Shown one piece after another: positions 6,251 through 10,183 of a stretch of 64,000 nt of DNA. This DNA comes from Rhodococcus sp. RD6.2. GTDB taxonomy: Bacteria > Actinomycetota > Actinomycetes > Mycobacteriales > Mycobacteriaceae. A program made the translations under genes and the position numbers. The stretch lies in the NCBI RefSeq assembly GCF_001040705.1, contig NZ_CVQP01000005.1:48675-112674 (forward strand), in the 5' to 3' direction. Under the pieces are notes generated by a model that was not told where the DNA came from, did not search any database, and worked only from the letters and a program-made list of their open reading frames with translations. Numbering within the stretch: position 1 is the first letter of the stretch; every line of letters starts with the position of its first letter.

Positions 6251-8935
6251 TCACATCCAGCCGCGGCGGATGAATAGCATCTTCGCGATCTGGGTCGTCG
6301 CGCAGTACGCCGCGAGGATTCCGATCAGCCACGGGAAGTAGCTCCACGGCAACGGAATCAGCCCGAGGGAACCGCCGAGGCCGGTGAACGGAAGCACGAG
6401 ACCGAACACGCACGCGAGGGCCGTCGTCACGAGGAGTGGCACCGACGCCCGGGACTGCAGGAAGGGAATTCGCCGGGTGCGAATCACGTGGACGATCAGA
6501 GTCTGGGTGAGAAGTGATTCGACGAACCACCCGGACTGGAACAGGGCGGCGTGTTCCGGCGCGTTGGCGGCGAAAACGAACCACATCACGGCGAACGTCG
6601 CGATGTCGAAGATCGAGCTGATCGGGCCGAAAGACACGATGTACCGGGCCAGGCTGCGGGTCTCCCACTTGCGCGGCCTGGTCAGGTACTCACGATCGAC
6701 GCGGTCCCAGGGAAGCGCAAGCATCGCGAGGTCGTACACCAGATTCTGCACCAGCAGGACCAGCGGGATCATCGGCAGAAACGGCAGCATGGCACTCGCA
6801 ACCAGCACGGTGAACACGTTGCCGAAGTTCGAACTGGCGGTCATCTTGACGTACTTGAGCATGTTGCCGAACGTGCGGCGGCCCTCGAGAACACCGTGCT
6901 CGAGTACACCGAGGTCCTTCTCCAACAGGACGATGTCCGCGGACTCACGAGCGATGTCGGCAGCGCTGTGCACCGAGATGCCGACGTCTGCGGCGTGCAG
7001 TGCCGGTGCATCGTTCACCCCGTCGCCGAGAAACCCGACGGTGTTCCCGCATTGCTTGAGCGACCGTACGATTCGCGCCTTCTGCGTCGGATCGATCTTC
7101 ACGAACACGGCCGTCTCCCCCACGAGCGCGGCGAGTTCCTGGTCGCTCGACCGGTCCACCCGGTCACCGTCGACGACGTTGCCGACCTCGATTCCCGCCT
7201 TGCGGCACACGGCCTCGGTGACCAGCTCGTTGTCCCCGGTGATCACCTTGACCGCGGTGCCGTGCGCCTGCAGCGCCGCGACGGCCGACGAGGCCGACGC
7301 CTTCGGCGGGTCGAGGAAGGTCAGGAACCCGACGAGGGTGAGGCCCGATTCATCCGCTCTGGTGTATTCACGGCGATCACCTACCTCCACTCGAATATGC
7401 CTGCGGGCCACAGCAAGTACTCGCTTGCCTTCGCCGTTGAGGCGTGCGACGAGCTCCTCGATCTCCGATCGGGACGTCGCGTTCAGGTCGCACGTCCGGT
7501 CGTTCGCCAGGACCGAATCACACAACATCAGAACCTCTTCCGCTGCCCCCTTGGTGACCATGAGGTCAAGGCCGCCGTCCTCGACCACGACCGACATGCG
7601 GCGACGGGTGAAGTCGAACGGGATCTCGTCGACGAGGCGGTGATGTCGCCCGATCCACTCGGACAACGGCTTTCCTGCCGCGGCCAGGACGGCCTCGTCG
7701 ATCGAGTTACGCAGCCCCGTCTGGAAATGGGCGTTCACCGTCGCCAGACGCAGGGTCGACCTGCTGCGCTGCCCTGCCGGATCCAGGTGCTCGGCCAGCG
7801 CGATCCGGTCCTCCGTCAGGGTTCCCGTCTTGTCGGTGCAGAGCACATCCATCGCGCCGAAATTCTGAATCGCTCCCAGCCGCCTGACGATCACCTTGTG
7901 GCGCGACATGTGCATCGCACCCTTCGCGAGCGTCGCGGTGACGATCAGCGGCAGCATCTCCGGTGTCAGTCCGACCGCGGTGGCGACGCCGAACAGCAGA
8001 GCCTGGCTCCAGTCCTTGGTGAGGCCGTTGATCACGAAGACCGCCGGAACCATGACGACCATCAACCGGATCAGCAGATAGCTGACCTTTCGTACTCCGA
8101 CGTCGAAGTCGGTGTCGGGCCGGGAGTTGTCGAGGCACTTCGCCATTGCGCCGAAGTAGGTGCGGCGTCCGGTGTTCACCACGACTGCCGTGGCCGAGCC
8201 CGAGACAACCGAGGTCCCCATGAAGGCGAGGTTGTCCGCGTCCAGGATTCGACGCGCGTCGGCCCCGTGGACGGCTGCTGCCGTCTTCTCGACCGGCGCC
8301 GACTCCCCGCTGAGCATCGACTGGTTCACCTGCAGGTGCGTCGCCCGCACCACCCGGACGTCGGCGGGGATCATGTCGCCCGCCGCCAGGGACACCACGT
8401 CGCCGGGTAGCAACTCGTCGATCGGGATCTCTCCGCTCACCACCTTGCCGTCGTGCCGCCGGGTGGTCGTGGAGGTGACGGTGACCATCTCCTCGAGTGC
8501 CGCCACGGCCCGACCCGACCGGTGCTCCTGCCAGAACCGCAACAGAACGCTGATCAGGACCATCGATCCCACCAGCACGATGCCGTCATAGGACGGCCCG
8601 TCGTCGGCCCACAGGACGTCCGTTGCGAACATGACGGCACAGAGGAAGACCAGGATGAGAACGAAGGGGTTCGTGAACGTCTTCAGCAGCTGGATGAACG
8701 CAGGTGGAGGTCCGTCCCGACGAATCCGGTTCGGACCGAACTCCTTGCGCAGCCGGTCCAGCTGGTCGGAGCGCAACCCCTGGAAGGTGGTGCCGAGATC
8801 GGCGTGAACGTCACGTGGCGCCCGCCCGGCGAGAGCGGTCAACCGACGGGCGTCGTCCGGTGCCAGCGAGGTGGTGTGCGAGCGTTCCGCCGCCTTCTCT
8901 CGCCGAGGCAACGTGAGCACAGTGGTGAATGACAT
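6251..8935 (-). CDS. mgtA: Magnesium-transporting P-type ATPase, MgtA/MgtB type
   Basis: An 894-residue P3B-type ATPase. An N-terminal cation-ATPase domain (DLGTTFQGLRSDQLDRLRKE) is followed by the actuator domain with MLSGESAPVEK, the phosphorylation motif DKTGTLT with Asp368, the nucleotide-binding region (VTKGAAEEVL) and the hinge GDGVNDAPALHAADVGIS. About ten membrane helices are seen, including LPMIPLVLLVQNLVYDLAMLALPWD, which holds the Asn/Asp positions of Mg2+ carriers. It imports Mg2+ with ATP hydrolysis. ATG 8935 has a GGAGAAGGA ribosome site. Upstream lie a leader frame and an M-box riboswitch, so expression should rise when Mg2+ is low; this also supports the substrate call. Confidence 0.93.
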   Translation of the reverse strand: MSFTTVLTLPRREKAAERSHTTSLAPDDARRLTALAGRAPRDVHADLGTTFQGLRSDQLDRLRKEFGPNRIRRDGPPPAFIQLLKTFTNPFVLILVFLCAVMFATDVLWADDGPSYDGIVLVGSMVLISVLLRFWQEHRSGRAVAALEEMVTVTSTTTRRHDGKVVSGEIPIDELLPGDVVSLAAGDMIPADVRVVRATHLQVNQSMLSGESAPVEKTAAAVHGADARRILDADNLAFMGTSVVSGSATAVVVNTGRRTYFGAMAKCLDNSRPDTDFDVGVRKVSYLLIRLMVVMVPAVFVINGLTKDWSQALLFGVATAVGLTPEMLPLIVTATLAKGAMHMSRHKVIVRRLGAIQNFGAMDVLCTDKTGTLTEDRIALAEHLDPAGQRSRSTLRLATVNAHFQTGLRNSIDEAVLAAAGKPLSEWIGRHHRLVDEIPFDFTRRRMSVVVEDGGLDLMVTKGAAEEVLMLCDSVLANDRTCDLNATSRSEIEELVARLNGEGKRVLAVARRHIRVEVGDRREYTRADESGLTLVGFLTFLDPPKASASSAVAALQAHGTAVKVITGDNELVTEAVCRKAGIEVGNVVDGDRVDRSSDQELAALVGETAVFVKIDPTQKARIVRSLKQCGNTVGFLGDGVNDAPALHAADVGISVHSAADIARESADIVLLEKDLGVLEHGVLEGRRTFGNMLKYVKMTASSNFGNVFTVLVASAMLPFLPMIPLVLLVQNLVYDLAMLALPWDRVDREYLTRPRKWETRSLARYIVSFGPISSIFDIATFAVMWFVFAANAPEHAALFQSGWFVESLLTQTLIVHVIRTRRIPFLQSRASVPLLVTTALACVFGLVLPFTGLGGSLGLIPLPWSYFPWLIGILAAYCATTQIAKMLFIRRGWM

Positions 8936-8993
8936 GGCTGTGTCCTTCTCCGCGCCGGCTCCGAAACGTCAGGAGCGCAGCGCAAAACTTCTC

Positions 8994-9037
8994 CGCGACA
9001 AGACAAGTCGCGCGAGTGGGCACGGCGGTTGGCCGTG
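8994..9037 (-). promoter_or_regulatory. Two short hairpins between leader stop and mgtA
   Basis: On the mgtA strand the first hairpin has arms CACGGC/GCCGTG (9037-9032 and 9026-9021) and the second CGCGAC/GTCGCG (9012-9007 and 8999-8994). They lie in the 128-base gap between the leader stop and the mgtA start, with no T-run after them. They could be part of a translation-dependent switch or a Rho-accessible region; the function is inferred only from position. Confidence 0.35.
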
Positions 9038-9063
9038 GAGGAAAGGACCGAGGCGGGAGACGG

Positions 9064-9132
9064 CTAGAGCGCGCGGCGACCGCCGTCGGTCATCGTGATG
9101 CGAGTCGACAGTCGACTGGGGGGTTCGTCCAC
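9064..9132 (-). CDS. Candidate mgtA leader peptide with acidic/proline N-terminus
   Basis: A 22-codon frame starting at GTG 9132 and ending TAG 9064-9066. It has an excellent ribosome site, GGAGGTGA at 9145-9138, five bases before the start. The product begins V/M-DEPPSRLSTR and ends GGRRAL. Enterobacterial mgtL leaders also put acidic residues and prolines right after the start, where low Mg2+ or proline stalling changes ribosome progress and so mgtA transcription. The same frame stays open upstream to ATG 9234 (56 codons), where a second GGAGGTGA sits 13 bases before the ATG, so a longer product is possible. No homology was tested. Confidence 0.5.
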   Translation of the reverse strand: MDEPPSRLSTRITMTDGGRRAL

Positions 9133-9261
9133 GGCGGTCACCTCCTCGAGACACGGGCGCCGGTCGGTGGACCATCCGGCGCCGAAAAGTTCCGGCGAGC
9201 ACACGAGGTCGTGAGTCTTTCTTGCGGAACGCATTTCGTGAAACACGTCACCTCCACGTAA

Positions 9262-9410
9262 GAGCTTCGGCACTGCACGACGTGTCCCGACTCGGGGAAG
9301 CCACCTTGGATCACCCCTTAATCCGGGGAGACCTGTCCTAACCTTGGGCGTCTCTCGACGTCGTCAGATCAGTGGCCTGTGTTCGTGCAGGAGCCTCGCC
9401 TAACGAGGTG
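9262..9410 (-). ncRNA. M-box (ykoK leader) Mg2+ riboswitch
   Basis: Read on the minus strand, the element opens with GTTAGGCGAGGCTCCTGC (9404-9387), almost identical to the invariant 5' M-box core. It continues with ACAGGCCACTGATCTGACG, then GTCGAGAGACGCCCAAGG and CTCCCCGGATTAAGG, all recognisable M-box consensus blocks in the right order. M-box RNAs fold on binding Mg2+ and shut off downstream Mg2+ transporter genes. The gene downstream is an MgtA-type ATPase on the same strand. A TTGACA-like -35 lies at 9451-9446, but the -10 is unclear. The 3' boundary is approximate. Confidence 0.88.
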
Positions 9411-9550
9411 CTGCGCCATCCAACCAACCACCACGGTCGGACGACTGTCAAATCGAGCCTCGAAGCGATCGGCACGGCGGCACCATCACGGGACGGCCCT
9501 GCCGAGGTCGGGGGCGGGGTCGCCGTGGCCGCAGACCCCACCGAACGTGA

Positions 9551-9584
9551 AACGCGCGCCGCACCGAAAGGTGCGACGCGCGTT
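9551..9584 (-). terminator. Terminator after the small secreted protein gene
   Basis: Stem-loop with 15-base arms around a GAAA tetraloop and one mismatch. It lies 15 bases past the stop of the upstream minus-strand gene. It separates that gene from the mgtA promoter region. The core nearly repeats the hairpin at 6182-6225. Confidence 0.75.
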
Positions 9585-9598
9585 CATGTTTCCCGGGA

Positions 9599-10183
9599 TC
9601 AGCTGCCGGCGCTCCCGCTGTCGCCACTGCTCGCGCTCGACACACCGAGCAGCGTGAGGAAGACCGGGATCGCCTCCGGGTTCTCGAGGACGGTGCTGCC
9701 GAAGTCGGCGACACCGGCGACACTGCCGAGACCGGCCGGGACGATCACCGGCGCCATCGCAGTCGCCGCGTCCTTGCCGATGCCCGCGCAGGCACCGACC
9801 ACGGCGTAAACGCCGTTGGGCAGGTCCTGAACCGTCACACTCGCGGAACGATCCAGAATGGTGGTGATCGCGGGTGCGCCCTTGATGACACCGCTGTTGA
9901 GGATGCCGAGGAAGTTGGCCGGATCGGTGATGTTCGCCAGCAGTGCACTGATCTCCACCGCGCGGCCGGCGTCGACGAGACCGGCTGCGCACCCGTCGAG
10001 GATGCCGGTGTTGGGATCGTCGAGCGTGAACGTGACGTCCCCGCCGCTGACCGACGCCTTCAATACGGGTGCGGTCGCGGTCGCGGCGGACGCCGTCGCC
10101 GGCATCGCGAATGCCAGTGCGGCGGCGGTCGCGGCGGTGATCGCGGCGCCGCCGGCGATCCTCGTCAGGGTGGTACTCGGCAT
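9599..10183 (-). CDS. Small secreted Ala-rich protein of unknown function
   Basis: A 194-residue protein with a Sec signal peptide: a short basic start (MPSTTLTRIAGG), a hydrophobic Ala-rich core and a cleavage-like ATASA-A site near residue 35. The mature part has low complexity in Ala, Val, Gly and Thr, two cysteines (DGCAAGL, VGACAGIG) that could form a disulfide, and a Ser/Gly tail. No catalytic motif is visible. ATG 10183 has a GGAAGG ribosome site; longer starts only add a basic, non-signal N-terminus. Its upstream region shares a 23-base motif with that of the other secreted protein gene in this window (see 10293-10315). Confidence 0.72.
   Translation of the reverse strand: MPSTTLTRIAGGAAITAATAAALAFAMPATASAATATAPVLKASVSGGDVTFTLDDPNTGILDGCAAGLVDAGRAVEISALLANITDPANFLGILNSGVIKGAPAITTILDRSASVTVQDLPNGVYAVVGACAGIGKDAATAMAPVIVPAGLGSVAGVADFGSTVLENPEAIPVFLTLLGVSSASSGDSGSAGS

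Follow-up and report, generated by a model that had tools for sequence, protein, structure and literature searches.

A short frame behind a magnesium riboswitch, uORF2 (Rv1805A), was described in M. tuberculosis (Mtb) by D'Halluin et al. (RNA 2026), who called it mycobacteria-specific (PMC12810186). In the parts of that paper available, control of uORF2 by the Mtb pe20 M-box is shown by reporters, SD1/anti-SD/SD2 pairing is proposed together with Rho, gating of uORF2 by its M-box involves Rho termination, and the operon is ON when uORF2 is translated (PMC12810186). Rare codons are reported there for uORF1, and a conserved uORF2 codon pattern is not among them (PMC12810186, same parts). Leader frames also act at other Mg2+ transporter genes: completed translation of MgtL leaves mgtA OFF and ribosome drop-off at EPDP turns it on (PMC11282234), and Asp2 and Glu5 of the 8-residue mgtQ frame promote mgtB expression (PMC8092293).

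The mgtA leader of the window

The window (the whole stretch of DNA analysed, 64,000 nt) carries, in minus-strand order, an M-box, SD1, SD2, the short frame uORF2 and mgtA. Its features are listed below; the lettered classes are those assigned to relatives in the next section.

9245..9414, minus strand: M-box (Mg2+) riboswitch aptamer RF00380, complete (cmscan 149.6 bits, E 4.6e-34, model positions 1-169 of 169)
9405..9410, minus strand: CACCTC, which forms the 5' side of stem P1 and is complementary to SD1 (base pairs of the Rfam consensus, aptamer alignment)
9248..9255, minus strand: SD1, GGAGGTGA; GAGGTG at 9254-9249 is the 3' strand of P1
9064..9246, minus strand: uORF1, GTG 9246, 60 codons, running across SD2 and uORF2 in the same frame to a common stop (ORF reading)
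9196..9208, minus strand: candidate anti-SD, CCTCGTGTGCTCG, between SD1 and SD2; retained in L001, L002 and L009, absent in L005
9138..9145, minus strand: SD2, GGAGGTGA; gap of 8 nt from GGAGG to GTG
9064..9132, minus strand: uORF2, GTG 9132, 22 codons, VDEPPSRLSTRITMTDGGRRAL, stop 9066-9064; the actinobacterial M-box leader frame as it occurs in Rhodococcus
9112..9117, minus strand: AGT CGA, uORF2 codons 6-7; A/T-ending in 10/10 class B loci (codon 7 CGA in 9, GGA in 1)
9002..9079, minus strand: C-rich, G-poor stretch, candidate Rho-loading site by composition alone (C/G 2.1, best 78-nt window of the leader)
6251..8935, minus strand: mgtA, ATG 8935, 894 aa, magnesium-translocating P-type ATPase (TIGR01524, 1143 bits, cut-off 610.75)

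The M-box is the sole match in the genome and scores above the RF00380 gathering score of 44 bits. Because the GAGGTG of SD1 is the 3' strand of P1, SD1 would be masked whenever P1 forms. The 22-codon frame with a strong SD, a GTG and a DEPP-type start that the earlier note had placed between M-box and mgtA agrees with the coordinates and ORFs, and the frame is open upstream behind the other GGAGGTGA, as the note had also claimed, to GTG 9246 (60 codons). The latter GTG lies 4 nt after the GGAGG of SD1, and ATG 9234, at which the note's interval ends, is in frame and lies 16 nt beyond that GGAGG; SD2 follows SD1 at a distance of 110 bases. Among the 27 GGAGG-led ATG/GTG frames of at least 8 codons in the window, uORF2 alone has two acidic residues and two Pro in positions 2-6, which argues for more than chance. 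A leader frame with its own ribosome site between M-box and mgtA supports the view that a translation-based element follows the M-box. The C-rich stretch, which starts within the end of uORF2, could load Rho. A convincing intrinsic terminator was not found (one terminator-like site in 8850-9700 against a shuffle mean of 0.4), and an Rfam scan of 8900-9260 with E up to 1 returned no family.

By position and by resemblance to the published description, rather than to an Mtb sequence compared by name, the window frame appears to be a uORF2 of the Rv1805A type (PMC12810186). Both systems have SD1 at the aptamer end, SD2, a short uORF2 with a conserved N-terminus, Mg2+-related genes downstream and a poorly conserved uORF1. 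The near-universal Pro7 of the paper (PMC12810186) also occurs in 60/68 class A frames; in the window frame, Pro occupies positions 4 and 5. Unlike Mtb uORF2, the window frame precedes mgtA and has D-D/E-P-P in place of D-S-P, and folding in silico did not recover the anti-SD switch for its class.

Enterobacterial MgtL is likewise a short leader with an acidic and proline-containing start upstream of mgtA, and acts via a Rho-dependent terminator, whereas the role of Rho in the window is a candidate by composition. To our knowledge the MgtL leader has no M-box. The two also differ in sign: finished MgtL translation switches mgtA off (PMC11282234), and the M-box model is ON when translated (PMC12810186). 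By analogy, mgtQ appears to be a closer precedent than MgtL: the Salmonella MgtQ frame is very short, has acidic codons close to the start, adjoins an Mg2+ transporter gene and promotes that gene (PMC8092293). Unlike the window frame, MgtQ lies between mgtC and mgtB and acts on the mgtB ribosome site, and a riboswitch is not mentioned for it in the available parts of the paper (PMC8092293). The M-box of Bacillus subtilis ykoK belongs to the same aptamer family as that of the window. We know of no leader peptide there. It differs from the window in using an intrinsic terminator (PMC12810186).

Leader frames behind M-boxes in relatives

M-boxes were recovered in 5/6 genomes of the genus, 55/201 of the family, 33/397 of the order and 26/394 of the class, in searches that overlap between sets and had stricter filters where they were larger. 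The family search and three named mycolicibacteria gave 86 M-box loci, 75 of which have a strong-SD-led frame of 5-50 codons after the aptamer (including L036 and L037, not classed as uORF2, and the doubtful L007 and L076). Manual reading found such a frame in 46/49 further loci, the others being L196, L214 and L215. In L026, L055, L060 and L062 (four of the 11 frame-less loci), and also in L061, an mgtC start occupies the place of uORF2, so the peptide is dispensable there. L047, L214 and L215 retain an AGT motif where the start place reads ATT, not ATG; L196 and L042 appear more decayed.

Peptides were classed by resemblance, which selects for the Ser and not for its codon: class A has MSPGDSPYPS and similar, class B (Rhodococcus, including the window) V-D-[D/E]-P-P-S-R, and class C MPDDSHS. 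In class B, DEPP replaces the DSP core of class A (codon 8 of the window is CTG); DDPPSRYST can be superposed by eye on the GDSPSRYLT of L017, and the MAFFT alignment has class B without gaps. The frame, its GTG and SD2 recur in 11 class B loci, with mgtA downstream in 9 and mgtC in 2 (L002, L009); among named records they precede mgtA in R. maanshanensis (L084), R. oryzae (L085) and R. qingshengii (L090). In one exception, L025 (G174), a run of seven C cuts the frame to VDEPPQ; a real change, a frameshift site and a sequencing error are alike possible.

The comparison with relatives that the earlier note had proposed thus bears it out for the start codon, D-D/E-P-P and SD2 in Rhodococcus class B loci. 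Its suggestion of two initiation sites fares worse: a start codon near SD1 occurs in 3/11 class B loci only (L001, L002, L005), where it is in frame with uORF2. The arrangement it had named as contrary, M-box and mgtA with no such frame, was not seen in class B, a class grouped by having the frame, and was seen in two Firmicutes (L089, L094). In a further locus, L093 (Clostridium ihumii, 3449 + 223), a GGAGGTG-led 31-codon frame, MEVGGSSLDSEDSH..., stands between M-box and mgtA, by chance or as a parallel.

Similar peptides, recognised by resemblance, occur in families f4, f5, f31, f32 and f34. Frames of the uORF2 type lie behind M-boxes in other Mycobacteriaceae genera and, on this resemblance, in five further Actinomycetia families. 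With similar peptides in Rhodococcus and five further families, the label mycobacteria-specific (PMC12810186, in the parts available) looks too narrow, and the peptide described for mycobacteria looks like a broad actinobacterial regulatory module. The downstream gene varies among single loci scanned: MgtC (L002), MgtE (L007, a doubtful frame), PE (L050), PPE (L203) and a P-type ATPase (L030).

A small protein with LTPQERANL or the like, often ending near ASLGG, recurs behind many M-boxes and uORF2s (L010, L016, L039, L046, L048, L086); the L046 copy, which was scanned, has no Pfam match. Divergent M-box pairs with ~230-240 bases between them were seen at G001:C50:34910-35483 and G002:C12:304631-305222, one M-box leading to mgtA with a DEPP uORF2 and the other to a small protein with a class A uORF2.

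Constraint on the peptide and on its codons

Starts of uORF2 (n=118) were hand-assigned from SD-led candidates and gave 114 distinct rows; in L016 the anchor lies four codons inside the SD-led frame, and in L192-L194 six. The codon table comprises 100 of the 114 rows (68 of class A, with L025-type rows excluded, 10 of B, 11 of C and 11 others) and omits L025, L007, L052, L056, L057, L059, L064, L065, L071, L076, L081, L192, L193 and L194. Among the omitted rows, L052, L056, L057 and L064 have no AGT at the corresponding place, and in L025 the AGT is out of frame. Expected values are based on the amino-acid-specific codon usage of long ORFs in the fetched loci. AGT is 5.7% of Ser codons in the fetched loci and 5.2% in the window, and TAT is 13.9% and 8.9% of Tyr codons, respectively.

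At the peptide level, codons 2-5 of the 10 class B loci (L025 excluded) change at third positions only, yielding D, D/E, P, P. Since this variation is synonymous or D/E, comparison among the loci indicates that in class B selection acts on the peptide encoded at the start of uORF2, and that the frame is no accidental ORF. In class B the true frame has the highest synonymous share of differences (0.39 vs 0.23 and 0.05 in the other frames). Its lead is marginal in class A (0.25 vs 0.24 and 0.07), and it trails in class C (0.08 vs 0.27 and 0.28), where a strong stem is predicted across the uORF2 stop. In class A, start-to-AGT offsets differ in whole codons (L039, L204, L170, L171, L205), which suggests that the frame is kept. 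Past residue ~10, residues and length diverge. An acidic residue lies within residues 2-9 in 65/68 class A, 10/10 class B, 10/10 class C and 13/22 other frames, a count that omits L007, L025, L064 and L076. By family, acidic residues near the start occur in 93/98 Mycobacteriaceae frames and 5/12 elsewhere.

Some codons appear as constrained as the residues. In class A, A/T third bases are far above expectation at codons 2 (59/67, expected 9.6), 6 (68/68, 10.1), 8 (58/68, 11.1) and 10 (67/68, 11.5), without excess at codons 3 (10/68, 9.6), 7 (6/68, 10.4) and 11 (5/68, 9.9), and intermediate at codons 4 (24/68, 14.2), 5 (43/68, 16.0), 9 (19/68, 11.6), 12 (20/62, 9.7) and 13 (30/68, 9.6). The pattern is thus not confined to codons 2, 6, 8 and 10, as codons 5, 12 and 13 also exceed expectation. 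At codon 5, GAT (40) and GAC (22) both occur, GAT exceeding its background. Codon 8 is not A/T-ending in 10/68 frames, and codon 9 is CGA in 9 of those. Codon 10 is represented by 11 different codons for nine amino acids, yet 66/68 are rare (under 8 per thousand; background 8.4%). The ten class B loci have A/T third bases at codons 6 (10/10), 7 (10/10), 8 (8/10) and 13 (9/10), and the 11 class C loci at codons 5 and 7 (11/11 each) and 6 (9/11). Codon 6 is A/T-ending in all 11 other loci, nine of which are from other families. Where the core is not AGT, it is GGT, TGT, AAA or GAT in class A and TCT or AGA among the eleven others. As a control, 92 ordinary downstream frames of the same leaders, picked automatically and possibly including false ones, have A/T at codon 6 in 15/89 and at codon 10 in 22/92; they are raised at codons 2-5 (30/90, 43/91, 41/90, 27/89) and at codon 9. 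Kinship among the sequences inflates all these counts, which are not independent events, though other third positions vary.

Pattern searches gave a similar picture. A pattern with AGT fixed at codons 2 and 6 had 100 matches (rows counted by hand) in 52 of the 148 genomes of genus g29, which is Mycobacterium-like by its PE genes; allowing any third base but T at codon 6, and leaving codon 2 free, gave one match, with AGA, in the same 148 genomes. AGC and AGG were thus absent from the core among these 101 matches. In all 30 AGT matches fetched as loci, an M-box-like motif, searched with up to four mismatches, precedes SD2 by 230-253 nt. In 201 genomes of the family, a similar pattern had 10 matches, 10/10 directly behind M-boxes, and a reversed control had none. 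So codon identity or RNA sequence appears to be selected beyond the peptide alone. Selection would have fixed certain uORF2 codons alongside residues, and what is new is that these codons are nearly always A/T-ending and mostly rare in GC-rich genomes. By titles and abstract openings, we found no other paper among those listed that describes a conserved codon pattern in M-box uORFs. As certain rare codons are conserved no less strictly than the peptide, the data hint that ribosome reading speed on uORF2 may be part of the control.

Proposed control and competing readings

We think it slightly more probable than otherwise that the window frame represents, in Rhodococcus, a family of uORF2 leader frames gated by actinobacterial M-boxes. 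With Mg2+ bound, P1 would cover SD1, the leader would hardly be translated and Rho would halt transcription in the C-rich leader ahead of mgtA. At low Mg2+, P1 would open, ribosomes would enter at SD1 and/or SD2 and read through uORF2, and leader translation would keep RNA polymerase running into mgtA. For class B the simplest gate would be P1 over SD1 and, in 3/11 loci, the in-frame uORF1 through uORF2. We propose with less confidence that the ribosome is slowed at codons 5-10 by the conserved, largely rare codons with A/T as third base (AGU, followed by CGA, UAU etc.) and that a timed ribosome stay is part of the control, e.g., by keeping SD2 or the Rho site covered; the Asp-Asp/Glu-Pro-Pro start in Rhodococcus may increase the slow-down. 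The main termination site given by D'Halluin et al., upstream of rv1805A (PMC12810186, in the parts available), counts against this explanation. Such a leader would be relevant to the joining of Rho, translation and Mg2+ sensing where intrinsic terminators are scarce.

A broader version is more tentative, with perhaps a minority chance of being right: M-box leaders across Actinomycetia would encode codon rarity, slow A/U-ending codons being required whatever the amino acid (in class A codons 6 and 10 plus 8 or 9, in class B codons 6-8, in class C codons 5 and 7). Decoding speed would then be a further input, coupled in series to the aptamer's direct detection of Mg2+. This raises the question of whether a riboswitch leader reads decoding speed.

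The codon pattern could instead serve the RNA. It is rather unlikely, in our judgement, that the uORF2 RNA, with its repeated UC/UCCG and A/U-rich spacers, is a Rho-loading or protein-binding site masked by translation, even though such a site would explain why TC spans class A codon boundaries 2/3 (58/68), 6/7 (65/68), 8/9 (55/68) and 10/11 (58/68) more often than expected (about 24, 8, 13 and 24), why the motif persists behind ATT in L047, L214 and L215, and why uORF2 has a median C/G ratio of 1.32-1.45, depending on the class. For Rho, a C would be expected to serve as well as a U, yet AGC was not found at the core in the searches above. TC is also rarer than expected at boundaries 3/4, 5/6 and 9/10 (1, 0 and 1 of 68 vs 23, 44 and 18), the variety of codons at class A codon 10 leaves no fixed sequence, and the observed offsets from start to motif are whole codons. 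That A/T-ending codons merely lower mRNA structure at the translation start is improbable. Synonymous recoding of the 10 class B leaders did place the native starts among the less stable (percentiles 0.64-1.00), and ordinary downstream frames share the raised A/T at codons 2-5; accessibility percentiles of the class B start region are nevertheless scattered (0.06-0.94), class A codons 3, 7 and 11 have no excess, and the signal at codons 6 and 10 is absent from ordinary frames. Structure avoidance at the start was rejected, as the recoding test accounts for overall stability only.

Other readings place the function in the peptide. The earlier note had seen in it an MgtL-like second Mg2+ sensor in series with the M-box, and an acidic and proline-rich start that destabilises the ribosome at low Mg2+, as in MgtL or mgtQ, would fit D-[D/E]-P-P at the amino-acid level in 10/10 class B loci, at least one acidic residue in most frames of the three classes and the promotion of mgtB by Asp2 and Glu5 of mgtQ (PMC8092293). 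The conserved acidic/Pro leader frame after the M-box stands, but a general need for acidic residues does not, as 12/110 frames lack one in residues 2-9 (3/68 of class A, 9/22 others) and 50/68 class A frames have a single one; moreover, if uORF2 translation keeps mgtA ON, abortion at low Mg2+ would oppose the M-box. We regard this reading as unlikely in general, an acidic second sensor in Rhodococcus being possible. A small protein acting in trans, e.g., on transporters, is very unlikely. D'Halluin et al. describe a homologue that is independent of an M-box, Rv0115A, and propose a role of this kind (PMC12810186), and the N-terminus is conserved. Against this, residues after ~10 and length diverge, all fetched pattern matches (10/10 and 30/30) lie behind M-boxes or M-box-like motifs, the downstream genes are varied, and A/T-ending codons at set places would be left unexplained.

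Gating by the published switch was assessed by folding. SD2 was more accessible with SD1 present in 58/67 class A, 3/10 class B, 12/12 class C and 11/17 other leaders, and relative to shuffled SD1 in 51/67, 4/10, 6/12 and 9/17, respectively; in the window leader the gain was just 0.01. The SD1/anti-SD/SD2 switch thus fits most class A leaders in silico and is not supported for the window's class B. A conserved hairpin from AGTC (AGTCGA-CTG-TCGACT in the window) was rejected, as it fails in class A, where GAC (22/68; GAT 40) breaks the stem, and by eye we found no pairing of AGTC with an upstream GACT in relatives among the output inspected. In class C (e.g., L068, L073, L079, L080), a strong stem of the GCTCGGCG...CGCTGAGC type, not seen in the inspected class A and B folds, is predicted across the uORF2 end and stop, where it may be an attenuator.
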